A DNA stretch of 64,000 bases from Candidatus Bathyarchaeota archaeon (GTDB lineage Archaea; Thermoproteota; Bathyarchaeia; Bathyarchaeales; Bathycorpusculaceae), in NCBI GenBank assembly GCA_026014735.1, contig JAOZHT010000002.1, positions 434,001 through 498,000 on the forward strand, read 5' to 3'. Both the position numbers and the translations under genes were made by a program. Positions 2,222 to 30,994 of the stretch are shown one piece after another (position 1 is the first letter of the stretch; each line of letters begins with the position of its first letter). A model generated the notes under the pieces. That model saw only the letters and a list, made by a program, of their open reading frames with translations, ran no database searches and had not been told where the DNA came from.

Positions 2222-2223
2222 TT

Positions 2224-2769
2224 CTAATTTCCTCCATCACTAAATTTTGAGGTCATTACTTTGAGGTTTACAGCCCACTCTTCAAGGGTTGCATTGGGGA
2301 AAGACCAGCTTGCATGCACATGATACATGTTGTCAAGAGTCATGGTTTTGAGGTCCGGTGCAAAGTGTTTGAGACCCGCCAAGATGAGTGCTTCCATGTA
2401 GTAGGGCATACCTACGTACATGACTAGGTCTGGGTGGCCTTTACCGTCCAGTCCCATCCAAGTTGGGTCACCGACGCGTTGGCTGATTTCCATTGCGTTC
2501 CAGAATGCCGCGGGTGTGTAGCCGCGTTTGATGAATTCGCCGACCATGTGAGCGGTGGCGACGACTGGAACTTTGCTTGCTTTTGCGAGGTCGATGATGT
2601 ATTCGATTGCTTGTTTGCCTTCCATCCAACGTTCAGTGACGTTGCTGCCCACAATTAGGAGGGGGCGTTGGGCTCTTTTGATCATTGCTACGGCTATCTC
2701 GGGTTTTTGGATTGGGTTTGCTTTTTTAGTTGCTGCGATTTCTGCACATTGCCATGGTTCACAGGACAT
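2224..2769 (-). CDS. cdhB: CODH/ACS subunit epsilon, CdhB
   Basis: Epsilon subunit of the archaeal CODH component, a Rossmann-like protein (DHS-like NAD/FAD-binding fold) that binds CdhA. It opens with SCEPWQCAEIAATKKA, a typical N-terminus for the family, followed by the core RPLLIVGSNVTE. Two in-frame ATGs compete: one at 2784, overlapping the cdhA stop, and one at 2769. The second is chosen because GGAGGAG sits about six bases before it and family members start close to this point. Gene order cdhA-cdhB-cdhC is as in methanogens. The starting point is the only uncertainty. Confidence 0.93.
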   Translation of the reverse strand: MSCEPWQCAEIAATKKANPIQKPEIAVAMIKRAQRPLLIVGSNVTERWMEGKQAIEYIIDLAKASKVPVVATAHMVGEFIKRGYTPAAFWNAMEISQRVGDPTWMGLDGKGHPDLVMYVGMPYYMEALILAGLKHFAPDLKTMTLDNMYHVHASWSFPNATLEEWAVNLKVMTSKFSDGGN

Positions 2770-2784
2770 AGTATTCTCCTCCAT

Positions 2785-5133: not shown

Positions 5134-5177
5134 ATTCGAAACCTCAGTAAAGGTTTACAACCCTACTTCCTTACAAT

Positions 5178-5188
5178 CTTTTTAAACC
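5178..5188 (-). promoter_or_regulatory. TATA box for the cdhABCD operon
   Basis: On the minus strand the gap between cooC2 and cdhA reads GAAAGGTTTAAAAAG, a good BRE plus TATA box. Transcription would start about 26 nt downstream, near 5157, giving a leader of roughly 25 nt before the cdhA ATG at 5133. The cdh genes can therefore be transcribed apart from the cooC pair. Confidence 0.6.
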
Positions 5189-5270
5189 TTTCCAGATTCT
5201 TTATGCGAAAGTCAGGTTACACCCATCGAAAAGCAAAAGAATGAAAAAAGTTAAGTAAAAAAAACTGCGC

Positions 5271-6035
5271 TCAGAGGTAGCCTAAGCCGTCGAGGATTTT
5301 CTGCACTGAAAGGTAGGCTTTGTTGTCGTTGGGGAGCTCAAGCAGCGACTTCCCGTTTAAAACGTAATCGTCTAGCTGCTCGTCAGCCTCGATTTTGCCC
5401 AGGTACTTGAATTTCAGTTCCTCCTGCGCTGATGCACCTAGTTCAGCGGGGAATCGGTAGCCTCCGACGAGGTAGAAGTTGTTGAATTTCATTTCAACTT
5501 CTTTGGCGATTTTGTATGCGCGGCGTACGTGGTCCTGAGATTTTTTGGAGTGGTCAAGGATGTCGAAGATGTCATTCACGTTGGAGGTTATGCGCCTGTT
5601 AAGGTTTTCTAGCCCTGCGGGGGAATCGACCAGTATGTACTTGTAGTTTTTTGTTAAAGATTCCAAGGCGCCCTTCAAAGCGGAGTTAGGCATGCAGTAG
5701 CAGCCCTCAATCCACTTGGTGCCCACCGACATGAAATCGAAGTGGGCGCTTTCGTAGAGGCCCTGCTCCCAGATGCGGCTTTCAATGCGCTCGGTGGGGG
5801 GAACACCCACTGTGGTGCCGCCCTTAACGATGAAGGTATTCACCAAAAGCTCAGCTATGGTGCTTTTTCCGGCTTCCCGCATGTCAACGCCCAGCATCTC
5901 AGCTAGGTTCTGGTCGGGGTCAGCGTCCACCAGAAGCAGCGGAGAATGATTTTTTTCGATGAAGCATTTAGCCATAAGGGCGGTGAAGCTGGATTTGCCT
6001 GTTCCGCCGCGGCCAATCGTTACCAGAGTAGTCAA
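5271..6035 (-). CDS. CooC-family nickel-insertion ATPase (second copy)
   Basis: 254-aa MinD/SIMIBI-type ATPase of the CooC group that matures the CODH active site. Deviant Walker A at residues 8-15 (GRGGTGKS), a DADPDQN loop after beta-strand 2, and a CxC pair (GCYCMPN) at the place where CooC dimers bind metal. It starts at TTG, two bases after the stop of the other cooC gene, so the two are co-translated. It is divergent from that copy, with GRGGTGKSS in place of the usual GKGGVGKT. It may serve a different cluster (C versus A) or act as a heteropartner; this is inference. Confidence 0.85.
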   Translation of the reverse strand: MTTLVTIGRGGTGKSSFTALMAKCFIEKNHSPLLLVDADPDQNLAEMLGVDMREAGKSTIAELLVNTFIVKGGTTVGVPPTERIESRIWEQGLYESAHFDFMSVGTKWIEGCYCMPNSALKGALESLTKNYKYILVDSPAGLENLNRRITSNVNDIFDILDHSKKSQDHVRRAYKIAKEVEMKFNNFYLVGGYRFPAELGASAQEELKFKYLGKIEADEQLDDYVLNGKSLLELPNDNKAYLSVQKILDGLGYL

Positions 6036-6036
6036 G

Positions 6037-6834
6037 TCAGGTCGCCTCTTTTTTCTGCGAGGTTTTCTTTAGCAGAAGCTCGCATATATTGTCTATGGTC
6101 TTAACTGCCTCGATTTCCTTGTTCTTAAGCGGGGTTACGCCCAGCATGTCGGATTCAATGACTTTCTGGTCCCAAGGCACATACGCCAGCACCGGGATGC
6201 CGTTTTGATCCGCGAAGGCTTGCACAGCCTGCTTTTGTTGTTCATTCATCATGCGGTTACCGACAAGGTAGAGGTTATTCATGCCTGCAGCGGCTGCCAT
6301 ATCATAGATGTGTTTGGCGATCTCCAGTGATTTAAGGTTCGAATCCGCCACAATCAAAAGCGCATCCACCTGCCGCGCCGTGCCTCTGCCGATGTGCTCC
6401 ACACCCGCCTCCAAATCCAAAACCACCGCCTCATTGGTTTCCACCACCAGATACCGCAGCAACGCACGGATGACGGCGGTTGGCGCACACATGCAGCCTG
6501 CCCCCATGGTGTGGACGGTGCCCATGACGATGAGGTTGGCGCCCAGCGGCGTAGGCTTAGCGTACTGTTTAACGATGTCGTCTACGGTGAAGTTTAGGTT
6601 GTAGACGCCGCTGTAGCCTGTGCTGGTTTTGGACTCCACCAGTTCCTTGTTGTCGGATATAGGCACGATTTTACGGGTTTCCTCAGCTGACAAACCTAAA
6701 GTTAAACCCAGATTCGGCGAGGAATCCGCGTCTATCGCGATTGTTTTAAGGTTACGCGAGGCAAACCCGCTGGCTAATCCGCCTGCAATAAGGGTTTTGC
6801 CGACGCCTCCTTTACCTGCAACTGCAACTTTCAT
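6037..6834 (-). CDS. cooC: CooC-family nickel-insertion ATPase (canonical copy)
   Basis: 265-aa CO dehydrogenase maturation ATPase. It begins MKVAVAGKGGVGKT, the textbook deviant Walker A, followed by IDADSSPNLGLTLG and a CxC metal site (GAGCMCAPTAV). The reading frame extends upstream to 6861, but the ATG at 6834 is chosen because family proteins start directly at the P-loop strand. First gene of a cooC-cooC-cdhABCD string, consistent with delivery of Ni to the complex encoded next door. Confidence 0.9.
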   Translation of the reverse strand: MKVAVAGKGGVGKTLIAGGLASGFASRNLKTIAIDADSSPNLGLTLGLSAEETRKIVPISDNKELVESKTSTGYSGVYNLNFTVDDIVKQYAKPTPLGANLIVMGTVHTMGAGCMCAPTAVIRALLRYLVVETNEAVVLDLEAGVEHIGRGTARQVDALLIVADSNLKSLEIAKHIYDMAAAAGMNNLYLVGNRMMNEQQKQAVQAFADQNGIPVLAYVPWDQKVIESDMLGVTPLKNKEIEAVKTIDNICELLLKKTSQKKEAT

Positions 6835-6922
6835 AAATACCACAAGAAGACTTGTATGCAAAACTAATTTTCAGCTTGCTTAATTTACGTTACCCCTCAA
6901 AAACCTCATTTGCAAGCAGCAG

Positions 6923-6930
6923 ATATAAAG
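6923..6930 (-). promoter_or_regulatory. TATA box for the cooC pair; rest of the 6862-7219 gap is non-coding
   Basis: On the minus strand CTTTATAT lies about 26 nt before a predicted start near 6899, leaving a leader of roughly 65 nt before the cooC ATG. The remainder of this 358-nt gap has short spurious frames only. It is C-rich on the plus strand and shows no tRNA-like or CRISPR-like structure that I can support. Confidence 0.5.
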
Positions 6931-7219
6931 TTCGAGTTTTTCTTTAGTTGTTGTTGCCGCTGACCCCTCTTTACACAACAACGACCTATGGTTTGTGCAG
7001 AACAATGCAACCGGGCAACAGGCACCAAAGCATATTGCAGGCTGGTTGTGGCGGCTTCCACAAGCAGAACAGCCTAAACTACGTTTCTCGGGGGCACCTT
7101 GCAAAATAGAGCCTCAAGGGGCTAGGGGAAAACCGCTAAAAACCCCACATGCACCCAAAAAACCATTCATTTCGCTACCTCTAAAGATTTTTGCACCGAA
7201 CCTCAATGGGCGCCTATAG

Positions 7220-8191
7220 TTAGTTGCCGCCTAATTTGATGGGCTTCTCTAGCTTGCTCAGCAGTACCACGCGGCTCTCATGCGCCTCATTTAGAATTCT
7301 ATAGCCGGTTGCGTTTGCCAGTTGCTCGGCAAAAGCCCTGACTTCATGATGCATGGGCATATGCTCAAAGCCCAGCCGCAAACCCGAAAAACCGATATGC
7401 ATGTAGGCTTTAGCTTCGATGTAGGTGGGCTGGGCTTTCTCTATCAGCTTTGCATAGCCTTCAATCGCGGTCATATTGTGGTCTTTAACCATGGTCATGC
7501 GCACCGCGGTGGGGCAGCGGAAACTCGGCAGCATCTCGAGGGTTTCGTTTAGTTTTTCCCATGCTTTGGGGAACTGAGGGCGGCAGACTTTGCTGAAGAC
7601 TTCTGAGTTTGGGGCGCACATGGAAACGTAGAGTTGGCTGGGTTCCGCGCTGAGTTTGCTGAGTTTGCCGGGTAGGTTGCCGTTGGTGACTAGAAAAACC
7701 GAGGCGCCCCTCTTACGGAACAACCCAATCAAGTCGCCCAAGGGCTCATAGAGGGTGGGTTCGCCGGTTAAGCTGATGGCAACCTGGTTGGGCCGCATGG
7801 CTTCCTGGAATTTGCGCCAATCCGTCTTCTCGTTGCCCTTATAGCCGGATATGATGCGTTGCTGCGCATGATAGCAGCCCTCCACAATCTCCTCGGGGCT
7901 GTCCTTGTTGGGGTTATGCATCTCATCCCATTGCTCACCCATATCACCGCTCTGTGCCCGCCAACAGAACAGGCACTGCTGCGTACAGTAGTAAAGCGAG
8001 GGCGTCATCTGGATACATCGGTGGCTTTGGATGCCGTAGAATTTCTGTTTATAGCAGGGACGATTGTTAACGATGGATTCGTAGAGCCACTTGCACCGCT
8101 TCACCGCCGAGTGCGCACCGATAAGGTGGTACTTCTGTTTTTTCAGGGATTCCACAAGCGGAGATGCGGGGGCTTGAGTCAAATATGGCAC
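7220..8191 (-). CDS. taw1: 4-demethylwyosine synthase TYW1/Taw1 (radical SAM)
   Basis: 323-aa radical SAM enzyme that condenses m1G37 of tRNA-Phe with pyruvate carbons to form the tricyclic imidazopurine of wyosine bases. It has the SAM cluster motif C69-x3-C73-x2-C76 (YYCTQQCLFCW) and the second-cluster cysteines Cys33, Cys46 and Cys59 ahead of it, exactly as in Taw1. Other landmarks are SLTGEPTLYEPLG and VTNGNLPGKL. Start is GTG. Its substrate m1G37 is made by Trm5, of which two versions are in this window (11135 and 52681). A TATA-like CTTTTTAAATG on the minus strand at 8217-8228 suggests a very short leader. Confidence 0.95.
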   Translation of the reverse strand: MPYLTQAPASPLVESLKKQKYHLIGAHSAVKRCKWLYESIVNNRPCYKQKFYGIQSHRCIQMTPSLYYCTQQCLFCWRAQSGDMGEQWDEMHNPNKDSPEEIVEGCYHAQQRIISGYKGNEKTDWRKFQEAMRPNQVAISLTGEPTLYEPLGDLIGLFRKRGASVFLVTNGNLPGKLSKLSAEPSQLYVSMCAPNSEVFSKVCRPQFPKAWEKLNETLEMLPSFRCPTAVRMTMVKDHNMTAIEGYAKLIEKAQPTYIEAKAYMHIGFSGLRLGFEHMPMHHEVRAFAEQLANATGYRILNEAHESRVVLLSKLEKPIKLGGN

Positions 8192-10898: not shown

Positions 10899-11060
10899 TT
10901 ATTTAGATTGGACACGCTTAACTACTGGAGGCTTAACCTTCTTGAGGATACGGTAGCCGCAGATGATGCATTTAGTTTCTCCGCCACGGAGCTCAAGCTC
11001 TTCAGAGGGCACACGTGAGCCGCATCTCATGCACTCATAAACAATTCCTGACTTTTCCAT
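10899..11060 (-). CDS. rpoP: DNA-directed RNA polymerase subunit P (Rpb12/Rpo12)
   Basis: 53-aa zinc-ribbon subunit of archaeal RNA polymerase. C-x2-C pairs are ECMRCGS and KCIICGY, followed by the conserved basic tail RILKKVKPP. The frame continues upstream, but the ATG at 11060 (MEKSGIVYECMRC) matches the usual length. It shares a divergent promoter region with the methyltransferase at 11135: TTTAAAAGTAAAATG lies about 26 nt before the expected start. Confidence 0.92.
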   Translation of the reverse strand: MEKSGIVYECMRCGSRVPSEELELRGGETKCIICGYRILKKVKPPVVKRVQSK

Positions 11061-11134
11061 GCGTAAACGCCTGTTCCTACAAAGAAAAAGCATTTTACTT
11101 TTAAACATTTCCAATACATTAATACAATGAGGAT

Positions 11135-12007
11135 ATGCAGTTGAGAGTTCGCCTCAAAGAAAAACTCGCCGGCGCCCTTCCGCCACAACAACTAAACAAA
11201 ATCTACAGCGCATTTGACATCATAGGCGACATAGCCGTCATCAAAACCGTCGACGGCGACCCCCAAAACGCACAGGCAGCCGCAAAGCAGATAATGGCGA
11301 CGCATAAAGGCATAAAAACCGTGCTTCTCCAAACCGGCGCCGTCGGGGGCAGCCACCGCACCCGGAAACTGGTGGTTCTGGCAGGCGAAGACAAAACCGT
11401 CACCCGCTACAAGGAAGCAGGCTGCGTATTTTCCGTTGACCTCGACAAATGCTATTTTTCTCCACGACTTAGCCATGAGCGGCTGCGCATCGCCAGCCAA
11501 GTTTCACCCAGAGAAACCGTCGTTAACATGTTTGCGGGCGTGGGCTGCTTTAGCATAATCATCGCTAAATCCTCGCCGCAGACCAAAGTTTACTCGATAG
11601 ACCTTAACCCCGCCGCCTACCAATCTATGGTTGAGAACGTACGGGTTAACCGCGTCTACAGCCGAGTTATCCCCATGCTGGGTGACGCTAAACAGATCGC
11701 GGAGGGGACGCTTCGGGGGGTTGCTGACCGCGTGTTGATGCCGCTGCCGGAGCTGGCGCTGGAGTATCTGCCGGCTGCTGTGGCGGCGCTTAAGCGGGAA
11801 GGCGGCTGGATTCACCTCTACCACTTTGAGCATGCAGTTGGCGATGAGGACCCCGCCGAGAAAACCGAACGTAAAGTCGCCGCAAAACTCTGCGAGTTGG
11901 GGGTGCATTACATGTTTGCGTGTTCCCGGGTGATTCGCAGCACCGGACCTAACTGGTACCAGACAGTGCTGGATATCCAAGTAGCCGAGTTGCCAAGCAA
12001 GTTTTAA
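11135..12007 (+). CDS. Trm5-family tRNA (guanine37-N1)-methyltransferase, short form
   Basis: 290-aa class I methyltransferase of the Trm5 type. It has GDIAVIKT at the start of D2, the signature YFSPRLSHERLRIA, the SAM loop VVNMFAGVGCFS and the DLNPAA strand. Compared with the copy at 51611-52681 it lacks the N-terminal D1 domain. The NLP motif (catalytic Asn, Asn265 in the M. jannaschii enzyme) reads M-P-L-P-E here, so the Asn is Pro. It could be a Trm5a-like paralog, a wyosine-pathway enzyme with altered activity, or act on another position. The next gene encodes a Trm112-like protein, a known activator of several methyltransferases. TATA CTTTTAAAC at about 11096. Confidence 0.8.
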   Translation: MQLRVRLKEKLAGALPPQQLNKIYSAFDIIGDIAVIKTVDGDPQNAQAAAKQIMATHKGIKTVLLQTGAVGGSHRTRKLVVLAGEDKTVTRYKEAGCVFSVDLDKCYFSPRLSHERLRIASQVSPRETVVNMFAGVGCFSIIIAKSSPQTKVYSIDLNPAAYQSMVENVRVNRVYSRVIPMLGDAKQIAEGTLRGVADRVLMPLPELALEYLPAAVAALKREGGWIHLYHFEHAVGDEDPAEKTERKVAAKLCELGVHYMFACSRVIRSTGPNWYQTVLDIQVAELPSKF

Positions 12008-22500: not shown

Positions 22501-23400
22501 ATGGATTTGTTGAAACCTAATGTTAAAAAGATGACTGAAAATAGAAATGTTGACGGTTTGGTTAAGGCTCTGCTGAATAAAGATTTTCTTATACGAATAG
22601 CAGCCGTAGAAGCTCTCGGCAAAATAAAAGCCCCCCAAGCAGTGAAACCATTAATTGAATTATTAAGCGACGAAGATAGTTCTGTAAGATACGCAGCCGT
22701 CAGAGCTTTAAGTGAGATTGGTGACAAGAGTGCTGCATACGCCATTTTCGAAAAGGCTGACTATAGCTATGACAAATTTCTCACTCTTGCCTTGATGGGA
22801 GATACAAGGGCATTATGCGGATTGGAGTTGCTGCTCGAAGAGATTTTCCCAGACCCACGTGTCGTTTACAGTAAGAGCCCGACTACAAGAGAAACTGCAG
22901 CAATATTGGCCAATATAGGTGAGCCCGCAGTTGATGCGCTCATTTCTTTTTTACAAAAAGATGCCCCAGCCTGGTATCCTCGTAACCCCGCCAGGTTTGT
23001 AGGACTTGGCAATCCACCCAATTCAGTTGATATGATGCGGTTTGTAATAGAAGTACTGGGATATTTAAAGAACCAAAAAGCTGTTAAGCCATTGCTCGAG
23101 TTGGATTGGACGCATGATGCGCATCTATTTGATACTGCAGCTTGGTCACTTGGGGAAATCGGTTGCAGAGATGAGCACGTCATTCAACGATTACAAGCAA
23201 AACTAAAAGAGGAAGCTGCTCGCCCCTGGAAAGACAATAGGATAATAAGCATATTATCAGAAGCTTTATTGAAACTAGAAAAAAAACACAGTAAGCTTAC
23301 ACGGATAATTTTAACGGCTCTACGGTCAAGGCTTAAATTTCCTCCAACAAGTTTATATCAAAAATATGGAGAAATATCCATTACAGGTCTATTCTGCTAA
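22501..23400 (+). CDS. HEAT-repeat (PBS-lyase-type) protein
   Basis: 299-aa alpha-solenoid. At least four HEAT/PBS-lyase repeats can be read: DFLIRIAAVEALGKIKAPQAV, DSSVRYAAVRALSEIGDKSA, then TTRETAAILANIGEPAVDAL and DTAAWSLGEIGC. No catalytic motif and no signal peptide, so a cytoplasmic protein-binding scaffold is likely. ATG start; a TATA-like GTTAAATAG lies about 45 nt upstream. It is AT-richer than flanking genes and lies next to an ankyrin-repeat gene of similar composition, suggesting both were acquired together. Confidence 0.82.
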   Translation: MDLLKPNVKKMTENRNVDGLVKALLNKDFLIRIAAVEALGKIKAPQAVKPLIELLSDEDSSVRYAAVRALSEIGDKSAAYAIFEKADYSYDKFLTLALMGDTRALCGLELLLEEIFPDPRVVYSKSPTTRETAAILANIGEPAVDALISFLQKDAPAWYPRNPARFVGLGNPPNSVDMMRFVIEVLGYLKNQKAVKPLLELDWTHDAHLFDTAAWSLGEIGCRDEHVIQRLQAKLKEEAARPWKDNRIISILSEALLKLEKKHSKLTRIILTALRSRLKFPPTSLYQKYGEISITGLFC

Positions 23401-23465
23401 TAGTGTTACTAGAAAGTTTATAAATTCTCACCTTTATTAAAAGACAAAGAAGAGGCCAGAGAAGC

Positions 23466-24083
23466 ATGATTGCGAATTTTGAAATTATAGGCAAATTAGC
23501 CGCAGCTTGCAAGGCAGGAAACAATAGAGAAATTGAAGAGATTCTTGACCGTGAACCTAATCTTGTAAATGCAAAGGACAGTTCTGGAAATATCGTACTT
23601 TTTCACTATGCTAGCCTTTATCGACAATTTGAAATTATTGACATTCTTATTCGAAGGGGGCTCAAAATCAACGATACAAACATTGTCATAGGTGGTGGTG
23701 ATGATGTAGCAATGGCTGAATTTTTGATCTCCCGAGGTGCTGACATAAATAAAGGAAACCATTGTGGGGTTACTGCACTTCATAGTGCAGTACTTTGTCA
23801 AAACTCCTCGCTATTTGATTTCATCTTACAGCATGGAGCTAACGTCAATGTGCTGGATAAGGATGGTGCAACACCTTTGCATTACGCAGCAGCTAGAGGA
23901 GACAAGATTTTGGCTGAAAAGCTACTTTTAAAAGGCGCAAACATTAATGCGCGTCTAATGGCAAACAAGCATTTCTGGGGTGGAATAGTTCCAGAAAAAG
24001 GAGCTACGCCTTTAACTGTTGCTAAATTATATGGTGAAAATTCCACAGCTGATTTTCTACTTGAAAATGCTGGTATTGAATAA
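23466..24083 (+). CDS. Ankyrin-repeat protein
   Basis: 205 aa made of ankyrin repeats: GNIVLFHYASLYRQFEIIDILIRRG, GVTALHSAVLCQNSSLFDFILQHG, GATPLHYAAARGDKILAEKLLLKG and GATPLTVAKLYGENSTADFLLENA. The last repeat is interrupted by an insertion (ARLMANKHFWGGIVPEK). No enzyme domain. It follows the HEAT gene by 65 nt in the same direction but has its own TATA box (GTTTATAAATTC near 23415). Probably a cytoplasmic protein-protein interaction module; ankyrin proteins of this kind are patchy in archaea and often transferred. Confidence 0.85.
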   Translation: MIANFEIIGKLAAACKAGNNREIEEILDREPNLVNAKDSSGNIVLFHYASLYRQFEIIDILIRRGLKINDTNIVIGGGDDVAMAEFLISRGADINKGNHCGVTALHSAVLCQNSSLFDFILQHGANVNVLDKDGATPLHYAAARGDKILAEKLLLKGANINARLMANKHFWGGIVPEKGATPLTVAKLYGENSTADFLLENAGIE

Positions 24084-24258
24084 CATGGAGCGCATACAAA
24101 TTTTATTTTAAGAAAAATTTTAATTGATTCGTTTAGGTTTGGTTTCAATTCCAAACTCATATTCTTTTGAACTCCATTTGTGGTTTATGGAGGTCAACAG
24201 TTTCTTCACCTTTTACTCATAATTATCCCTAAGAATCCTAACATAATTCTTAAATAGT

Positions 24259-24282
24259 CTGTAAACATTGTAGTGTTTACAG
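24259..24282. promoter_or_regulatory. Perfect inverted-repeat operator at the head of the RGWFP array operon
   Basis: CTGTAAACA, six-base spacer TTGTAG, TGTTTACAG: a perfect 9+9 bp dyad. It starts two bases after a TATA box (TTCTTAAAT, 24248-24256) and covers the expected transcription start near 24280, eight bases before the ATG of the HTH gene. A protein bound here would block initiation. The HTH protein encoded directly downstream is the obvious candidate (autoregulation, inferred). The 24084-24240 stretch before it is AT-rich and empty. Confidence 0.7.
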
Positions 24283-24290
24283 GTATTGTC

Positions 24291-24773
24291 ATGTCCACGC
24301 CCTGCAACGTCTCCTCACCCCTCAGTCAAAGCCAAAAAACCATCTGGGAACTCCTCGGCAAAGGCCTCAGCGTCACCACCATAGCCCAAAAACTCAAAAC
24401 CACCCGCCAATACGTCAACCAAACCCGCCTCACCGCCCAAACCAAACTCGCCACCACCCTCCTCGAAGTCGCCCAAGTCAACGACCTCCAAGTCACCAAA
24501 CTCCTCCCCCAACAAGCCATACTCCTCGGCTACCACCCCGGCCTCAAACGCAAAGCCATCATCACCTACACCACCAGCCACGGACTCAAAGTCTGGTACT
24601 GGCACGACAACCCCGAAGAAATCACCGACACCGCGTTCCTCAACCAAACCCGCCAATACCTCATCGACATAGCCCATGAAAGAGGCATAGAAATCCCCGA
24701 TGCCGACAAGATTCACCCTGCCAAGCTGGCGCATCAAATCTTCAGCCAACTCATACCGGAGCTCAAAGCATGA
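24291..24773 (+). CDS. Helix-turn-helix regulator heading the RGWFP array
   Basis: 160 aa. Residues 9-50 form a sigma-region-4/LuxR-like HTH (LSQSQKTIWELLGKGLSVTTIAQKL, then TTRQYVNQTR as recognition helix). The rest is a small alpha/beta domain of unknown role (KAIITYTTSHGLKVWYWHDNPEEIT). ATG at 24291 follows the operator. A GTG in frame at 24273 lies inside the dyad and probably upstream of the transcript start. Its stop overlaps the ATG of the first array gene (ATGA), so translation is coupled. The coding strand is strikingly C-rich and G-poor, unlike the AT-richer array genes. Likely regulator of the array; ligand unknown. Confidence 0.75.
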   Translation: MSTPCNVSSPLSQSQKTIWELLGKGLSVTTIAQKLKTTRQYVNQTRLTAQTKLATTLLEVAQVNDLQVTKLLPQQAILLGYHPGLKRKAIITYTTSHGLKVWYWHDNPEEITDTAFLNQTRQYLIDIAHERGIEIPDADKIHPAKLAHQIFSQLIPELKA

Positions 24774-25954
24774 ATTGGGAAAGCGGCTACCAGCGGTACC
24801 TTCGAGGCTGGTTCCCTCAAGAACCCGCACTTCAGACCAAGGCAGTAACACGCATAGATAACGTCCCTTCACAGGAACGAAAAAACAAAAAACAGCTACT
24901 AATTTACACAGTTATTTTTGGTATTTTCTCGATTTTTAATGGAGTTACCTCTTTATATTCCAAGGATTACCCTATTGCAGCCTTTGACTTTTGTTGGGTC
25001 GCTATTTTATTCAGTCTTTGTTATGGCATTTACAGATACAACATAACTATTCGACTAAGATTTGCTGTAACAGCTGTGTTCATGTTTATAGGCGCTGCCG
25101 GCGTTTTTTTCAATGATGCACTTTTAGGCATTTTGCGTTTTTCAGGAATCATCGCATATCCTCTGCTAGGCACCAGTGTGGGCGTAGCAACCTTCGTTGG
25201 AGTGGTAGCTGTAATATTGATAATTTTTACCGTCACTACTTGGAAATTACAGAAAGAAAAGTTAATTTGGACTGTTCCCGATAATTTTCCGACCAAACGG
25301 CAACTACTCGCGCCCCTTGCCGCTATAGCAATCTTACCCGCCATCACATACCTTGTAATAACCTCGGGATTGCAGTATGAGTATGCCATTCCGATAGCTT
25401 TGATTACAATAGGCTTTCTGGTTCTTCGAGGATTAGACCGCTTCGCCAAAACCCTCCCCGCCATTTTGGCGCTTCTCTTTTGCATTATGTTCTTAGGTAC
25501 AGCCGTTGCAGGCGCATTCACAGTCACCTACGTGCCCGAAAATCACTATATAACCACCACAGAGGCGCCTAACGTAAACGTTGTGAATTTAAATGTTAAC
25601 ACAAATCAAGCAGACATCCATGTCTACTTTACAGAAGACACCACCAAAATCTGTCAAGTATCCTTCATCAAACAATATGGACCAACCATAGTTAGCAGCC
25701 GAGCAGAATATCATCCAAACGGTACCTATGACAATGAACCAGCAAACAACTTCAACTATACCGTACAAGGCCAGCAATTACTGGTGTATGTAGATTGTTA
25801 TAGCACACTGGTTAATGTCACGTTAAGTCAGAATTATAGTTATAACCTCAACCTCTTCTCGTATTTTGGCTGGATAACCGTTCACGACTCGTCAAGCATT
25901 CAAGCGGGAAATTACACGACTCAGTGGGGTCATGTAGAGAGGCTTCAAAACTAA
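24770..25954 (+). CDS. RGWFP-array membrane protein 1 (seven TM segments plus ectodomain)
   Basis: 394 aa, largest member. The motif RGWFPQEP is at residues 12-19, followed by a polar linker. About seven membrane helices span residues 45-256 (for example LLIYTVIFGIFSIFNGV, LLGTSVGVATFVGVVAVILII, ILALLFCIMFLGTAVAGAF). A beta-rich ectodomain of about 135 residues follows, with many NxS/T sequons (NGT, NYT, NVT, NYS) and ending in GHVERLQN. The motif would lie in the cytoplasm or at the membrane interface. The ATGA overlap with the HTH gene implies coupled expression. No known family recognised; it is the only array member with a sizeable extracellular part and may be the sensor or substrate-facing subunit (speculative). 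Confidence 0.7.
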   Translation: MNWESGYQRYLRGWFPQEPALQTKAVTRIDNVPSQERKNKKQLLIYTVIFGIFSIFNGVTSLYSKDYPIAAFDFCWVAILFSLCYGIYRYNITIRLRFAVTAVFMFIGAAGVFFNDALLGILRFSGIIAYPLLGTSVGVATFVGVVAVILIIFTVTTWKLQKEKLIWTVPDNFPTKRQLLAPLAAIAILPAITYLVITSGLQYEYAIPIALITIGFLVLRGLDRFAKTLPAILALLFCIMFLGTAVAGAFTVTYVPENHYITTTEAPNVNVVNLNVNTNQADIHVYFTEDTTKICQVSFIKQYGPTIVSSRAEYHPNGTYDNEPANNFNYTVQGQQLLVYVDCYSTLVNVTLSQNYSYNLNLFSYFGWITVHDSSSIQAGNYTTQWGHVERLQN

Positions 25955-25957
25955 AGG

Positions 25958-26587
25958 ATGATGGGTATGAAGAAACCAACTTTGGAAAACCGAATCAGAG
26001 GATGGTTCCCTGCCACACCGACCTTACCAAAGCCACAAAAAAGCCTGCCAAGAATGCAGAATGCCCTGGCAGTGGTTAATCCGCTTCCGGCAGCCATGGA
26101 ATCAAAATATCAACGCGATGCAGGCATAGTGATTGGCTTTGGCATAGGATTGATCGCTTTGGGTTTTGGGGCAGCATTAATTTCAAGTATAAATTACAGC
26201 CATTTTGCGGAAGCGTTAAGTTGGCAGGGCATCGTTATAGACAACCGCCTTTTCAGAGATTTACTTGACAATATTGCGCTCTTTTTATCGATGGGCGTTG
26301 GCGGCATACTTATGGCAGTTATGGGCGCAGTATCGATAAAAAGCCAAAGATTCAGAAACTCGATGGCTGAAGGAATGATGCGGAAGAATTTTGTGGGAAA
26401 TTTCCTCTTCGGCTGCGGCTTTGGCGTGATTGCAATTTCCTTCCGATTCCTATTCCTCTACCTGCTGGCTCCAACCGACCTCAGCCTCAACTATGACTAT
26501 TTGCAACTGAAGATGTTCGGCGGCTTCTTCGCGGTCGGACTTACAATGTTTACAGTTGGAATACTTTCTTGGAGGAGAAAAAAGTGA
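25958..26587 (+). CDS. RGWFP-array membrane protein 2 (four TM)
   Basis: 209 aa. N-terminus reads NRIRGWFPATPTLPKP, then a polar linker to about residue 50. Four membrane segments follow (VIGFGIGLIALGFGAALI; LFLSMGVGGILMAVMGAV; FLFGCGFGVIAISFRFLFLY; FAVGLTMFTVGILSW), with a basic end RRKK. The motif is the least canonical of the ten after the prolines (ATP rather than QEP). The ATG is three bases after the previous stop; an ATG at 25967 is also possible. Function unknown. Confidence 0.68.
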   Translation: MMGMKKPTLENRIRGWFPATPTLPKPQKSLPRMQNALAVVNPLPAAMESKYQRDAGIVIGFGIGLIALGFGAALISSINYSHFAEALSWQGIVIDNRLFRDLLDNIALFLSMGVGGILMAVMGAVSIKSQRFRNSMAEGMMRKNFVGNFLFGCGFGVIAISFRFLFLYLLAPTDLSLNYDYLQLKMFGGFFAVGLTMFTVGILSWRRKK

Positions 26588-27219
26588 AAACACGAGAAAC
26601 CTTAAGAAACCGAATCAGAGGCTGGTTCCCACAAGAGCCTAAAATAAAAAACTCAACGTTTGCTATTAGCGATAGCTTACCTAAAATGCAGGCAATACCG
26701 CCCCAGAGATACAAAGCTTTTTCCCTAAACCGCGATTCAATATTTTTCATTTTATTGTTAGGGATGCCGCTGCTAAATTGTTTATTTTACCTGCCTTTCT
26801 CTAATTTTGTTGGCTTAATTCTTTTTGGCGCAGTTATAGGAACATTTCTCGCAATAGTGCCCGCATATAGGGAACTGCAAACGCTATTTAAAACTGGCTC
26901 TTCAAATGTTAAACTCTCGACAACGACATTTATTGTCTTTGCTCTTAGCGGTTTGTGTTTGATAATAGGGAACTGGATAGTTAACTTCCCCCAAGTTGCT
27001 ACGTTAACATATTCAATGATGGCCTTCTTTGTTTCGAGTTTATTATCCGCTGGGGCTGCACAAACGCTTCTTTTTCGTGCTTGGGAAAGAAAAAATAAAT
27101 CAGAGCTTTGGCGAGGAGAGATTAAAAGCGGAGACTTTTGGCGGGGAAGATTCGTGCTTTATTCTATCCCAAAAACACGTACTGAACAAAACGAACAAAA
27201 AAGCCGGTTGAAGCCATGA
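26584..27219 (+). CDS. RGWFP-array membrane protein 3 (four TM, WERK tail)
   Basis: 211 aa. Start chosen at GTG 26584, overlapping the previous stop (GTGA), six bases after GGAGGAG. The motif NRIRGWFPQEP is at residues 9-19. Four TM segments are followed by a cytoplasmic tail with WERKNKSELWRGE. It is a recognisable paralog of array protein 10 (shared TM2 end AYREL/TYREL, then KLSTTTF/KLSSISF and WERK-x-x-SE-x-W). Unknown function. Confidence 0.68.
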   Translation: MKTRETLRNRIRGWFPQEPKIKNSTFAISDSLPKMQAIPPQRYKAFSLNRDSIFFILLLGMPLLNCLFYLPFSNFVGLILFGAVIGTFLAIVPAYRELQTLFKTGSSNVKLSTTTFIVFALSGLCLIIGNWIVNFPQVATLTYSMMAFFVSSLLSAGAAQTLLFRAWERKNKSELWRGEIKSGDFWRGRFVLYSIPKTRTEQNEQKSRLKP

Positions 27220-27521
27220 AAAACAAAGAGCACAGTGGAAGGCAAATCAGAGGCTGGTTTCCAGCTGACCCCAAACTTAACGCAATCAAAGTAAACGTAG
27301 CGAAGCCTAGGCCAGCCATAAGGGGGCCTCCGACTGTTCGGGAACGGCTTGTAGGCGGATTAGGCGCGGCAGGCGGCTCCTTTACTGCGCTGGGGGTCAT
27401 CATGAGTTTTGTTCCCGCATACCCAAATCAGGTGGCGGTTCTGCTGGTTGTTTTGGGGGTTCCGCTGTTGGCGGCGGCTTTTCTGGTGTGGCTCAGCTAT
27501 CGGAGGGAAACAAGCCGATGA
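27216..27521 (+). CDS. RGWFP-array membrane protein 4 (two TM)
   Basis: 101 aa. RQIRGWFPADPKL near residues 9-21, basic/Pro linker (KPRPAIRGPPTVRERL), then two TM helices (GGLGAAGGSFTALGVIMSF and VAVLLVVLGVPLLAAAFLVWL) and a short charged end. ATG overlaps the previous stop by four bases. One of three two-TM members interspersed with four-TM members. Confidence 0.66.
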   Translation: MKNKEHSGRQIRGWFPADPKLNAIKVNVAKPRPAIRGPPTVRERLVGGLGAAGGSFTALGVIMSFVPAYPNQVAVLLVVLGVPLLAAAFLVWLSYRRETSR

Positions 27522-28120
27522 ACGCCAAAAGAAGCCTCCAGACACGCATCAGGGGATGGTTCCCACAGGAACATGCTTCGCCCTCAAACCGAAAAATTGA
27601 GGCGGCACCCATGAGCAGAATCGGCGCTATCTCAGCCCGAACATTTGGCGGATTGGGAGTGGCCAGCCTATTGGCAGGGTTTGTTCTCTTGGCGGCTCCA
27701 TACTTGCTGTTTCCGAATAGCTTTACCCCTAAAGCTAACTCTGGATGGGGATATGCCTCGCCCAGAACGCCAGAGGCATGGATAATTTTAGCAGGGGCAA
27801 TTGCGCTGATTTTCATCTCAGTTCTCGCCTTCACGTTTTGTGGAGTCAAGCTTAAAACTCAGGGTTCAAAGTGGATGAAATACACACGCTGGGTTACGCC
27901 CGCTGAAGACTTTGGAGACCTCTTCAAAGCCACCGTTGCAGCTAACATTATGTTGGTCTGCGCCTTCTTAGGGTTCACATTATACACAGCCGCAACCGCC
28001 GGGTCACAGCCACTGTTTACCTCGGTGATCATTTTTACAGTTCTCATAGCACTCGTTAACCTGTTTTTCCATGAATACGGCAAGAAAAAAACCGCCGAAA
28101 AAAAGGAGACCTCAAAATGA
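27518..28120 (+). CDS. RGWFP-array membrane protein 5 (four TM)
   Basis: 200 aa. Start at ATG 27518 in the ATGA overlap (MNAKRSLQTRIRGWFPQEH); the frame is open further upstream but only through the previous gene. The last Pro of the motif is His. Four TM segments (VASLLAGFVLLAAPYLLF; WIILAGAIALIFISVLAF; IMLVCAFLGFTLYTAA; SVIIFTVLIALVNLFF) and a Lys-rich tail. The first seven residues match those of array protein 6 (MNAKRSL), evidence of shared origin. Confidence 0.67.
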   Translation: MNAKRSLQTRIRGWFPQEHASPSNRKIEAAPMSRIGAISARTFGGLGVASLLAGFVLLAAPYLLFPNSFTPKANSGWGYASPRTPEAWIILAGAIALIFISVLAFTFCGVKLKTQGSKWMKYTRWVTPAEDFGDLFKATVAANIMLVCAFLGFTLYTAATAGSQPLFTSVIIFTVLIALVNLFFHEYGKKKTAEKKETSK

Positions 28121-28437
28121 ACGCCAAAAGAAGTCTCCTAATGCGCATAAGAGGATGGTTCCCTCAGGAACCCAACTACAAACACCTCGCAAGTCCTGCC
28201 TCATTGCCCAAAACAAAAGCAGAGCCAGACAAGAAAGCCTTCAAAGTCGCGCAGATAGCCAACGGAATCATGGTGGCCGTGTTTTTGGGCACCGACTTGC
28301 TATTTATTCGCCCTGCCTACGACAGCTTGACAGTATCCGTTTTGCAGTGGAGCATATTTATTGCAACGTTGGTGTCCGTGAACGTGCTGATTTATCGTAA
28401 CTATAAGCAGCGTCTGCTGCCGAAGGGATGGCGTTAA
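28117..28437 (+). CDS. RGWFP-array membrane protein 6 (two TM)
   Basis: 106 aa. MNAKRSLLMRIRGWFPQEPNYKH, linker with SLPKTKAEPDKKAF, two TM helices (ANGIMVAVFLGTDLLFI; LQWSIFIATLVSVNVLIY) and a basic end (KQRLLPKGWR). ATGA overlap with the previous gene. Confidence 0.66.
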   Translation: MNAKRSLLMRIRGWFPQEPNYKHLASPASLPKTKAEPDKKAFKVAQIANGIMVAVFLGTDLLFIRPAYDSLTVSVLQWSIFIATLVSVNVLIYRNYKQRLLPKGWR

Positions 28438-28438
28438 G

Positions 28439-29104
28439 ATGGGGTTGCGGCGGCGTTCAGAAAAATTCTTCAGAGGATGGTTTCCCCAGGAGCCCGCTTT
28501 GCATAGAAATAGCTACCAAACGGTTCATGAAAAGAGGCAGCTACCTGTAACTCCGCCGGGGTCCAAAACAAGGGTAAAACAAGATAACTTCAGACTAACT
28601 GTTTTCTTAATTATTATTGATTTATTTTGGGGATGTTTCTTCTTTGGACTTGCCTTAGATTCCCCCGGTTGGATTTCCCTGTTTGCTGTCGGATGGATGA
28701 TTGCAGGCATAATTTTGGGGGCAGGTTTAGGCGTATTATCCATTCGAAGAGTCATGAGAAAGTTGTTTGAAGACCACCGGTATCAAATGGATTTAAGGGG
28801 TTTTCTGCCATTTGTTCCCTTGACTATCTTTGCTATCTTTGCGGCTTATGCCGATGTCGTGTTCAATGAGGGCCCGACGATATCGCCGTCGCTAGCGTTT
28901 GTAGTTTCGGGTTTAGCCTTGATTACGGCAGCTGCAATTGCGAGATATGTTTTGTTTCCTGCTTTCGAGAAGAGGGAAAACATGCGTTTAATGATTGCTG
29001 GGTTTGGAGGCGGCATCGTCGCTGTTCCAAAAGAGAACCCGTTGATGACTGGCTGTGAAGCGGGTGACGGTGAATTAGGCAAAGAGGGTGGAGGCGCAGT
29101 TTGA
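28439..29104 (+). CDS. RGWFP-array membrane protein 7 (four TM, FEKRENMR tail)
   Basis: 221 aa. RSEKFFRGWFPQEPALHRN near the N-terminus, then a linker of about 35 residues and four TM segments. Between TM2 and TM3 is a charged loop (MRKLFEDHRYQMDLRG), and the tail contains FEKRENMRLMIAGFGGG. Paralogous to array protein 9, which has FERKNDMR at the same place. ATG one base after the previous stop. Confidence 0.67.
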   Translation: MGLRRRSEKFFRGWFPQEPALHRNSYQTVHEKRQLPVTPPGSKTRVKQDNFRLTVFLIIIDLFWGCFFFGLALDSPGWISLFAVGWMIAGIILGAGLGVLSIRRVMRKLFEDHRYQMDLRGFLPFVPLTIFAIFAAYADVVFNEGPTISPSLAFVVSGLALITAAAIARYVLFPAFEKRENMRLMIAGFGGGIVAVPKENPLMTGCEAGDGELGKEGGGAV

Positions 29105-29415
29105 TGAAAAAGTTATCTTCTCGCATAAGAGGATGGTTCCCAGAGGAACCCACGTTGCCTACTCGGCTTAAACCGCTGGGGCATGTTCCCTATATGGCTT
29201 GGTGGCTGGCGGGGGGGATTGCAGGCGGAGCAGGCGCTTTAGGGTTGATGGTTGTCTTTGGAAACCTAACAGGAATCACGGGTGAATCCGCCGCCGCTTT
29301 TCTGTGGTATATTGAAACGGCTTCTTTTGCATGGTGCGTCGGCGCCGCTATCGCGGTTTACGGTTACCTTCGACATAGAAGGAGCCATGGAGAGGGGAGC
29401 TATGAAGGCAAGTGA
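29104..29415 (+). CDS. RGWFP-array membrane protein 8 (two TM)
   Basis: 103 aa. MKKLSSRIRGWFPEEPTLPTR, then two Gly/Ala-rich TM helices (WWLAGGIAGGAGALGLMVVF; ETASFAWCVGAAIAVYGYL) and a basic tail (RHRRSHGEGSYEGK). ATG 29104 overlaps the previous TGA; a TTG three bases earlier is also in frame. Confidence 0.66.
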   Translation: MKKLSSRIRGWFPEEPTLPTRLKPLGHVPYMAWWLAGGIAGGAGALGLMVVFGNLTGITGESAAAFLWYIETASFAWCVGAAIAVYGYLRHRRSHGEGSYEGK

Positions 29416-30016
29416 GATGCTGGCTAACCGCATCAGAGGATGGTTCCCGCAGGAGCCCCGCTTGATATGCTCGGCGAACCTGCAAGGGCATGAAGCCAAG
29501 CAGCCGCCCCGGATAATTCCCTCCGATTACACGCTTAGCACAACAAAGTATGCGGTTGTATTGGCGGTTTTCAATGTGGTGCTCTTTGGCTTCATGTCTT
29601 TCTCCATAGGGCTTGAGCTTCGAGCTTCATTGGTGACTGCTGCTTGGGTAACCATGGGCGCAGCGGCGGGTCTTGTTTGCAGTTGGGCATTAACCACACG
29701 TCAGCTTGGCGTGCTTGCAAAAGAATACCATTACCGCTTTACCGCTAAAGAGCTGGTTTTGCTATTACTCATTGCAGCTATGCCGATCACGGGAGGTTTT
29801 GCCTGCTGGAGTATCTACGGCAGAGATTTATCGCCCTTTTTAGCCCTGCTTTACCCCTGGGTCGTTTCCTTCGCAATCACCCGACCCCTACTCTTGGCTG
29901 CTTTTGAACGGAAAAATGACATGCGTATAGTGCAGAGCACGTGGGGAACTGGGATGTATCTTATCCCGAAACCGCCCCAAGACAACATAAGCAGCCGTGC
30001 AGGTTGGAGGCGCTAA
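29402..30016 (+). CDS. RGWFP-array membrane protein 9 (four TM, FERKNDMR tail)
   Basis: 204 aa from ATG 29402 (MKASEMLANRIRGWFPQEP), which overlaps the previous gene by 14 nt and has GAGGGGAG just upstream; ATG 29417 is the alternative. Four TM segments with a charged loop (LGVLAKEYHYRFTAKEL) between TM2 and TM3. The tail FERKNDMRIVQSTWGTGMYLIPKP is shared in outline with proteins 3, 7 and 10. Confidence 0.67.
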   Translation: MKASEMLANRIRGWFPQEPRLICSANLQGHEAKQPPRIIPSDYTLSTTKYAVVLAVFNVVLFGFMSFSIGLELRASLVTAAWVTMGAAAGLVCSWALTTRQLGVLAKEYHYRFTAKELVLLLLIAAMPITGGFACWSIYGRDLSPFLALLYPWVVSFAITRPLLLAAFERKNDMRIVQSTWGTGMYLIPKPPQDNISSRAGWRR

Positions 30017-30020
30017 ATGA

Positions 30021-30617
30021 ATGGGCACACATAGAAGCCCCCGCTCAAAGATAAGAGGCTGGTTTCCCCAGGAGCCAATCATCATCAAGATGCCTCTGGT
30101 GGGCTACAGCCGCAGCGGCCTTGCTTTAGCTGAGAGACCGCAGAGTGCAATGCGCATTTCTGTAAACCTGATTCTTATGGCGATTACTTCCACAGGCTTT
30201 GTAGTAACCTTTAGCAGATATCTAACTTACGTTTTGGCTGCGCCGGTGATGGCGGCGGCATTAGCTGGCTCGGTTGCTTTGGGTTTATTCCTCGGGGCAG
30301 CTTTGACATACAGGGAGTTGAAGGTTCTTGCTCGGGCGGGTCAAGCCAGCACCAAACTGTCATCGATCAGTTTCCTAATCACCGCTCTAACGCTGGTAGC
30401 AACTGTTTTCCTCAGCGCATTCTATTATCCTCAAGAAATATGGGGCACAGCGTTCCTCTGCGTTTTCGTGACAATAGCTACATATTTTGATTCAAAGGCA
30501 GCGTTGATTTTCGGTTGGGAGAGAAAATATCGCTCTGAAGTCTGGGTGGGCAAAAACCAGCTGCTCACGATGCCGAAACCAAAAAATCCCCGCGGCTACC
30601 CGCCAAAAGCGCCCTGA
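30021..30617 (+). CDS. RGWFP-array membrane protein 10 (four TM, WERK tail)
   Basis: 198 aa, last member. RSKIRGWFPQEPIIIKMP at the N-terminus, four TM segments, tail WERKYRSEVWVGKNQLLTMPKP. Closest to array protein 3. ATG four bases after the previous stop. The array ends here: the next gene is on the opposite strand, and no T-rich terminator is obvious between them. Confidence 0.67.
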   Translation: MGTHRSPRSKIRGWFPQEPIIIKMPLVGYSRSGLALAERPQSAMRISVNLILMAITSTGFVVTFSRYLTYVLAAPVMAAALAGSVALGLFLGAALTYRELKVLARAGQASTKLSSISFLITALTLVATVFLSAFYYPQEIWGTAFLCVFVTIATYFDSKAALIFGWERKYRSEVWVGKNQLLTMPKPKNPRGYPPKAP

Positions 30618-30628
30618 AGAGCAGACCG

Positions 30629-30829
30629 CTATCGGCTGAGGTCGGGGGGCGCTTGGCTGTGGAGTTTGCCGCCGCTTGCCCAGTTCTCCTTGGGGACCTC
30701 CAGAATCATCACGGTGGTGGCTTGACTGGGGATACCCATATCCGTGAAAACCCGGGTTATTCCCTCGACGACTTTCTGCTTATTCTCAGGGCTCATGCCG
30801 GCCCAAACGTTTACCTGCACAAAAGGCAC
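30629..30829 (-). CDS. 4-oxalocrotonate tautomerase-family protein
   Basis: 66 aa. The catalytic base of this superfamily is an N-terminal proline exposed by Met removal. Starting at GTG 30829 gives (M)PFVQVNVWAGMSPENKQKVVEGIT, exactly that arrangement. The ATG at 30841 would bury the proline behind four extra residues, so the GTG is preferred. The rest (KVVEGITRVFTDMGI, VMILEVPKENWASGG) is typical of 4-OT-like tautomerases. Substrate unknown. It is convergent with the array and unrelated to it as far as can be seen. Confidence 0.85.
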   Translation of the reverse strand: MPFVQVNVWAGMSPENKQKVVEGITRVFTDMGIPSQATTVMILEVPKENWASGGKLHSQAPPDLSR

Positions 30830-30994
30830 ATAAATCACCATAAAGGGTTAGGCGGCAGGGCAGATTAATTTTTCCCACCGCATCAAACCTAGAAGAAAAG
30901 CCGCTTTGCTGTTTCTACTGATAACTGCTTTATACATCCTCCGCCAATAAAGGGTACCCGTCTATCCCAAGCAACCAACCCCTGAGGATACAGC

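Follow-up and report, generated by a model that had tools for sequence, protein, structure and literature searches.

A Helix-Turn-Helix Regulator and an Array of Tagged Membrane Proteins in Bathyarchaeia: A Candidate Self-Regulating Signalling Operon

Why should ten neighbouring genes encode membrane proteins that differ almost throughout and share one short peptide near the N-terminus? This question is raised by a 64,000-nucleotide stretch of DNA (the window) from a Candidatus Bathyarchaeota archaeon (assembly GCA_026014735.1, contig JAOZHT010000002.1, positions 434,001 to 498,000), in which an array of divergent membrane proteins carries the N-terminal consensus [IL]RGW[FLI]P[QK]EP, referred to here as the tag. 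The first-pass annotation of the window described the array alone and omitted the helix-turn-helix (HTH) gene and the promoter heading the operon, so the unit is larger than described there. On balance, by a modest degree, we favour the reading that a closed signalling operon regulates itself and has the array as its membrane side, and that in this operon the repressor would be docked by the cytosolic tags of membrane sensors acting as an antirepressor. All the genomes used were assembled from metagenomes, and the gene starts and transmembrane (TM) calls are crude.

The tagged array and the gene heading it

Exactly 10 of the 68 open reading frames (ORFs) called in the window contained RGW[FLI]P within the first 45 residues. 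These were consecutive on the + strand at 24770-30617, as annotated before, and the chance of such a tag estimated from composition was ~1.4e-5 per gene. The nucleotide pattern MGNGGNTGGTTYCC had 13 matches in the organism's own 2.9-Mb genome, ten of them inside the array. An exact scan for IRGWFP[KQ]EP in the whole collection matched three contigs of Bathyarchaeota and, in what was taken as a chance match, a single bacterial one (Microvirga).

The tag was examined further in a set of 81 tagged proteins gathered from relatives. R was encoded by six codons, G by four, and P by four, and because the codons are saturated, selection acts on the peptide and not on a DNA repeat, in agreement with the earlier proposal. 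Although the invariance of G, W, and the first P in this set is partly due to the design of the search pattern, the flanks (I-R before and [KQ]-[ED]-P after) are conserved too, and not all of them were demanded by the pattern. Within the array, the 10-residue tag showed a mean identity of 79% versus 14% for the bodies, and only two pairs of paralogues (proteins 7/9 and 3/10) were detectable by BLAST, which bears out the little overall similarity noticed at first. The scan of the ten array proteins against Pfam and NCBIfam gave no match above the curated cut-offs; they match no membrane family named in these libraries, an outcome that the annotation had listed among those refuting its idea having thus not arisen. 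No paper containing the RGWFP motif was found in the literature searched, and a search for arrays of this kind in Bathyarchaeia yielded nothing relevant.

The likely starts of several genes lie inside the longest ORFs, at 26584 (GTG), 27518, 29101 or 29104, and 29402. With the starts corrected, the close packing of the genes stands, but the overlaps, formerly given as 1-14 nt or abutting, are reduced at most junctions to 4-nt overlaps or abutting ends. The helix counts of two, four, or seven given before had to be replaced: a crude hydropathy scan yielded 8, 4, 4, 2, 4, 2, 4, 1-2, 4, and 4 helices in gene order. The tag has its R at position 12 in 51 of the 81 tagged proteins, and the first helix typically begins near residue 43. 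The tag precedes the first helix and is predicted by the positive-inside rule to be cytosolic in 78 of the 81. As it ends ~20-25 residues ahead of that helix, a cleaved targeting signal is unlikely.

The protein encoded by the HTH gene is 63-82% identical between species, whereas the bodies of the 81 tagged proteins fall into 34 groups. Its AlphaFold2 (AF2) model (pLDDT 91) consists of three N-terminal helices followed by four strands and two helices. The Pfam scan of this protein gave merely weak GerE/HTH_7-type HTH matches, with no LytTR domain and no indication of a sigma factor, and the sequence search of the PDB returned nothing significant. The best fold match of the model in the PDB, a weak one, was the archaeal regulator EnfR (8hno; TMq 0.36, E=0.24). 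The Tfx profile TIGR00721 scored 20 bits over residues 11-50 only, which cover just the HTH, its cut-off being 60.25.

The operator, its co-inheritance with the tag, and the HTH subfamilies

A search for relatives by the tag pattern yielded 17 loci. In 15 of them, tagged genes cluster behind a gene for this same 160-aa HTH protein, which answers positively the check for such clustering proposed with the first-pass annotation, and the junction between the HTH gene and the first tagged gene is normally an ATGA overlap. For a wider survey, a tag profile independent of codons was applied to 163 genomes of the order at a threshold of E<=0.0012. Twenty-two genomes were tag-bearing, and 20 of these were among the 24 genomes with an HTH protein of the window type (hypergeometric p=1e-19). 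Since related genomes are not independent, this value overstates the co-occurrence; the tree nonetheless shows that the association of tag and HTH is deep. The two remaining tag-bearing genomes are incomplete assemblies: in one (L110), the tagged array lies at the end of a contig, and in the other (L111), a tagged gene comes after ABC transporter genes. Besides the HTH family, which recurs at nearly every tag locus, no gene was found to be co-conserved with the arrays.

The promoter of the operon contains a palindrome (Table 1), referred to here as the operator, and its consensus was present with at most two mismatches upstream of 24 of the 27 window-type HTH genes. In most of the homologous promoters, a TTAAATA-like box stands 0-4 nt before the palindrome, the end of which is mostly 7-12 nt ahead of the start codon. 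The core TGTAAA-N10-TTTACA is found in perfect form twice in the 2.9-Mb genome (C2:208840 and C2:458260), each time before a window-type operon of HTH and tagged genes, and its four copies with one mismatch all lie within called ORFs. In genomes lacking the HTH protein, there is on average about half a chance copy, and most such copies do not extend to the fuller consensus. In other genomes, several tagged genes located away from the HTH gene keep the operator upstream, exactly at three loci (L043, L049, and L051) and with one mismatch at two (L112 and L113), and the tag match at G025:C23:143873 likewise has an operator upstream. From this distribution across genomes, the apparent target of the regulator is its own operon together with tagged genes, the binding to DNA being a prediction from sequence. 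The operon of the window thus combines the three features by which we define the module: an HTH homologue, an overlapping tagged TM gene, and a 22-bp promoter palindrome.

Table 1. Features of the operon (window positions).
Feature	Position	Strand	Description
TATA-like box CTTAAATAG	24249..24257	+	promoter of the operon; assigned by sequence
Operator palindrome TGTAAACATTGTAGTGTTTACA	24260..24281	.	22 bp; consensus TGTAAAYA-N6-TRTTTACA; between TATA box and start 24291
HTH regulator	24291..24773	+	160 aa; Tfx/LuxR-like HTH and beta4-alpha2 C-terminal domain; overlaps first tagged gene
Tagged membrane protein 1	24770..25954	+	394 aa; ~8 TM and C-terminal extramembrane domain; tag YLRGWFPQEP; shares ATGA with the HTH gene
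Tagged membrane protein 2	25958..26587	+	4 TM; tag RIRGWFPATP; body homologue in L032
Tagged membrane protein 3	26584..27219	+	4 TM; GTG start; tag RIRGWFPQEP
Tagged membrane protein 4	27216..27521	+	101 aa; 2 TM; tag QIRGWFPADP
Tagged membrane protein 5	27518..28120	+	4 TM; tag RIRGWFPQEH
Tagged membrane protein 6	28117..28437	+	106 aa; 2 TM; tag RIRGWFPQEP
Tagged membrane protein 7	28439..29104	+	4 TM; tag FFRGWFPQEP
Tagged membrane protein 8	29101..29415	+	~103 aa; 1-2 TM; tag RIRGWFPEEP
Tagged membrane protein 9	29402..30016	+	4 TM; tag RIRGWFPQEP; paralogue of protein 7
Tagged membrane protein 10	30021..30617	+	4 TM; tag KIRGWFPQEP; paralogue of protein 3

The profile of the HTH protein detected relatives in 52 of the 257 genomes belonging to the class, and other classes of the phylum contributed a few more. 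Most of them were read in their genomic context, which resulted in three subfamilies. In the first, the window type, the C-terminal domain of the HTH protein has no Cys triad and the partner carries the RGWxP tag, the two genes being adjacent in 21 of 27 operons. HTH proteins of the second subfamily contain C-x2-C-x5-C, and the partner, usually encoded by a single gene, carries CPxP, often as WCPxP; the tagged gene directly follows the HTH gene in 30 of 35 usable operons (the CPxP match at L094, an internal CPxxC, was discounted by eye). Many promoters of this type contain palindromes of equal 22-bp geometry, such as TGTAAGC-N8-GCTTACA and TGTCAAC-N8-GTTGACA. Among the CPxP partners scanned, three had recognisable domains, namely a PQQ propeller, repeats of CarboxypepD_reg, and, as a weak match, a GH43/BNR-like domain. 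An operon with one partner in the organism's own genome (L056) bridges the first two types because its tag, FRGWLPQQPSNFQRLRQHSTPIVI, resembles tags of the second type, e.g., WCPCPEPPRYTMLRQYSKPIII.

The third, more distant subfamily (KPP) has the Cys triad and a membrane partner of ~240 aa starting with [VI]I[KR]PP...SGxxFxPS, which was adjacent in 13 of 13 cases. Its loci are L082-L087, L100, L101, and L103-L107, with G000:C1:254083 in the own genome; the start of the partner extends to [VI]I[KR]PP...SGxxFxPSKAFLHK, and the promoters have GTAAATCTTTAC-type repeats. Two further observations concern single relatives. At L080:2861-3448, the partner of a distant HTH protein from another class carries a bacterial PH domain (bPH_5) after the tag and TM helices. 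At L109 (G032:C3, ~11058-11521), the HTH gene is decayed, with internal stops, and its C-terminal remnant is in frame with a WCQKP-tagged membrane protein.

Proposed mechanism and its alternatives

Starting from the operon, the operator, and the co-inheritance of tag and HTH, all of which are read directly from the genomes, we infer docking and derepression as follows. The HTH protein, presumably a dimer, would repress its own operon by binding the palindrome that separates the TATA box from the start codon; the palindrome, its place, and its exclusiveness are observed. An archaeal operator downstream of the TATA box and over the start site usually means repression, and repression is proposed here because the palindrome has this position with respect to the expected start site. 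Every co-transcribed membrane protein is predicted to display the short basic tag in the cytosol, where the regulator's C-terminal domain would be its docking site; as the HTH protein is the only constant partner of the tag, the tags may titrate or switch it. Upon sensing at the membrane or outside the cell, the tagged proteins would hold the regulator at the membrane, and repression would be relieved. The ancestral form was probably one regulator with one CPxP-tagged membrane protein, and in the lineage of the window one regulator may serve up to ten different membrane proteins.

The docking step was also examined by folding the HTH protein and tag of L059 as a read-through product, in which the stop was read as Gly and the sequence was otherwise natural, using an alignment of the HTH rows and one other fusion. 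Tag residues 164-166 (NWC) formed a strand with a confidence above that of the disordered flanks, which is weakly consistent with docking.

From the earlier idea of a common tag, docking stays plausible, but its likely partner is the regulator and not the sister subunits. The assembly of paralogous subunits into one membrane system is not supported, because what stays constant beside the tag in all lineages is the HTH regulator with its operator; moreover, the bodies form many unrelated groups and some operons (L036, L045, and L056) encode a single tagged protein.

A more far-reaching version, which we put forward tentatively and consider possible rather than probable, is that the module represents a new archaeal class of transmembrane signalling, in which a dedicated autorepressor is read by an array of unrelated sensors through an interchangeable docking peptide. 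The CPxP form would be bridged by a metal held by three Cys of the regulator and one of the tag, and this bridge would be replaced by a hydrophobic contact where the arrays expanded. The Cys triad of the HTH protein accompanies the Cys of the tag, and both are absent in the RGWxP clade; such a shared loss is what one would expect had the four Cys formed a single metal site, and it lends weak support to docking in general.

Several observations weigh against the signalling operon or its metal-bridged form. Two genomes bearing the HTH gene (G010 and G026) had no tag at all in the tag-profile search, and the six window-type HTH genes without an adjacent tagged gene form one subclade in the tree. 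Repression is preferred to activation because of where the operator stands with respect to a TATA box and a start site that are themselves assumed. Most members of the array are small proteins with two or four TM helices and no recognisable sensor domain. The Cys correlation amounts to one evolutionary transition, and the KPP subfamily possesses the Cys triad with a tag lacking Cys, which weakens a strict rule equating Cys in the HTH protein with Cys in the tag.

Among the other explanations, the one that survives best lies near the earlier idea: the HTH protein merely regulates the operon, and the tag docks a different partner (a membrane scaffold, insertase, or protease) for joint assembly or turnover. 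A short, basic, N-terminal tag common to unrelated bodies would suit this, and control by the HTH protein through the operator would account for co-regulation without any docking. However, the arrays have no further co-conserved gene and the type of tag changes along with the HTH subfamily, and we regard this explanation as rather unlikely. The opposite sign of action, in which the tag tethers the HTH protein as a membrane co-repressor, so that binding of the tag would favour repression and a signal would set the regulator free or alter its affinity for DNA, seems less likely still. The anatomy would be identical, the operon produces regulator and partner together, and regulators that act on DNA while held at the membrane are known. 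No feature distinguishes the sign of action, but access to DNA would be harder for a regulator that as many as ten membrane proteins hold in place.

A further reading, which is quite improbable, sees the array as a surface or defence cassette that evolves fast, its membrane proteins coming and going behind a standard promoter and the tag being no more than an N-terminal signal for expression or insertion. The rapid turnover of bodies, the gene number varying from 1 to 10, and the patchy presence fit such a cassette, but the tag is equally strong in the distal genes and in the first one, its third codon positions vary freely, its class tracks that of the HTH protein, and some single-gene CPxP partners have sensor-like exodomains. 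A DNA repeat, recombination site, or RNA element, for which a 31-nt direct repeat family of 10 copies might speak, was rejected with near certainty, as synonymous codons are saturated over the 81 copies, the repeat is in register with each gene's reading frame, and no Rfam family was matched in the array region.

Related systems and neighbouring genes

Among known regulators, membrane anti-sigma systems such as RsgI/SigI bind the regulator through a conserved cytosolic segment at the N-terminus and have a single TM helix and extracellular domains that vary. The module of the window would work in a similar manner, but its tag comprises about 10-20 residues and, in place of a sigma factor, it has an HTH protein that possesses an operator of its own. 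The RsgI_N domain was absent, by Pfam, from the ten array proteins and from eight further tagged or partner proteins. In regulators of the ArnR type, the HTH and TM parts are united in one polypeptide. In the window module, they are separate proteins linked by the operon and presumably by the tag. The ArnR-type membrane-bound one-component regulators of Sulfolobus, as presented in excerpts of PMC6396743, exert archaeal transcriptional control from the membrane, as is proposed here.

The LytTR regulatory systems HdrRM and BrsRM, as far as the excerpted text of PMC6193735 describes them, resemble the window operon in architecture only: the regulator gene is first, the membrane partner is second, and the promoter contains repeats. 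They are two-gene operons autoregulated through repeats in their own promoters and sometimes linked to ABC transporters. Their regulators belong to a different family from the window HTH protein, act as activators, and are inhibited by one membrane protein, and the same excerpts describe neither a common N-terminal tag nor arrays of up to ten partners (PMC6193735). Tagged genes are located inside or beside ABC transporter operons (ATPase and permease) at L047:7679-10511, L048:1357-5341, L111:4498-6424, and L113:370-2427, and this placement recalls the ABC links of the LytTR systems. In anatomy, the module is a pair of regulator and membrane partner like the LytTR and anti-sigma systems; it is a member of neither, and its constituent families are not described in the libraries searched.

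To our knowledge, little is known about signal transfer through the archaeal membrane to transcription factors, apart from regulators with their own membrane helix. EnfR of Thermococcus onnurineus (PDB 8hno, Tfx family), in the available portion of PMC10570040, resembles the HTH protein in being archaeal and in having an N-terminal sigma4/LuxR-like HTH, a long helix, and an alpha+beta C-terminal domain. However, the C-terminal domain of EnfR has the order beta-alpha-alpha-beta-beta (the "eighth note" fold), whereas that of the window HTH protein is predicted to be beta4-alpha2, which places it outside the Tfx fold. The same portion of the paper mentions no membrane partner of EnfR, in contrast to the tagged membrane proteins of the window operon; it treats the relief of repression by Tfx-like factors such as EnfR as an open question, and its authors suggest an unidentified antirepressor (PMC10570040). 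The module would offer a concrete answer, namely a short docking peptide carried by membrane proteins that have nothing else in common, and the proposed tag-bearing antirepressor would be of the kind suggested for EnfR but not found. The profiles of the tag, operator, and regulator also allow many "hypothetical membrane protein" genes of Bathyarchaeia to be assigned to a regulatory system.

The genes around the array were annotated by eye. Directly upstream of the operon (22501-24083) are genes for a HEAT-repeat-like and an ankyrin-repeat-like protein, which were not seen beside the other arrays. Just after the array, at 30629-30841 on the - strand, lies a gene for a small tautomerase-like protein of the 4-oxalocrotonate tautomerase type. 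A carbon monoxide dehydrogenase/acetyl-CoA synthase-like gene cluster with CooC-like ATPases occupies positions 812-8191 of the window.

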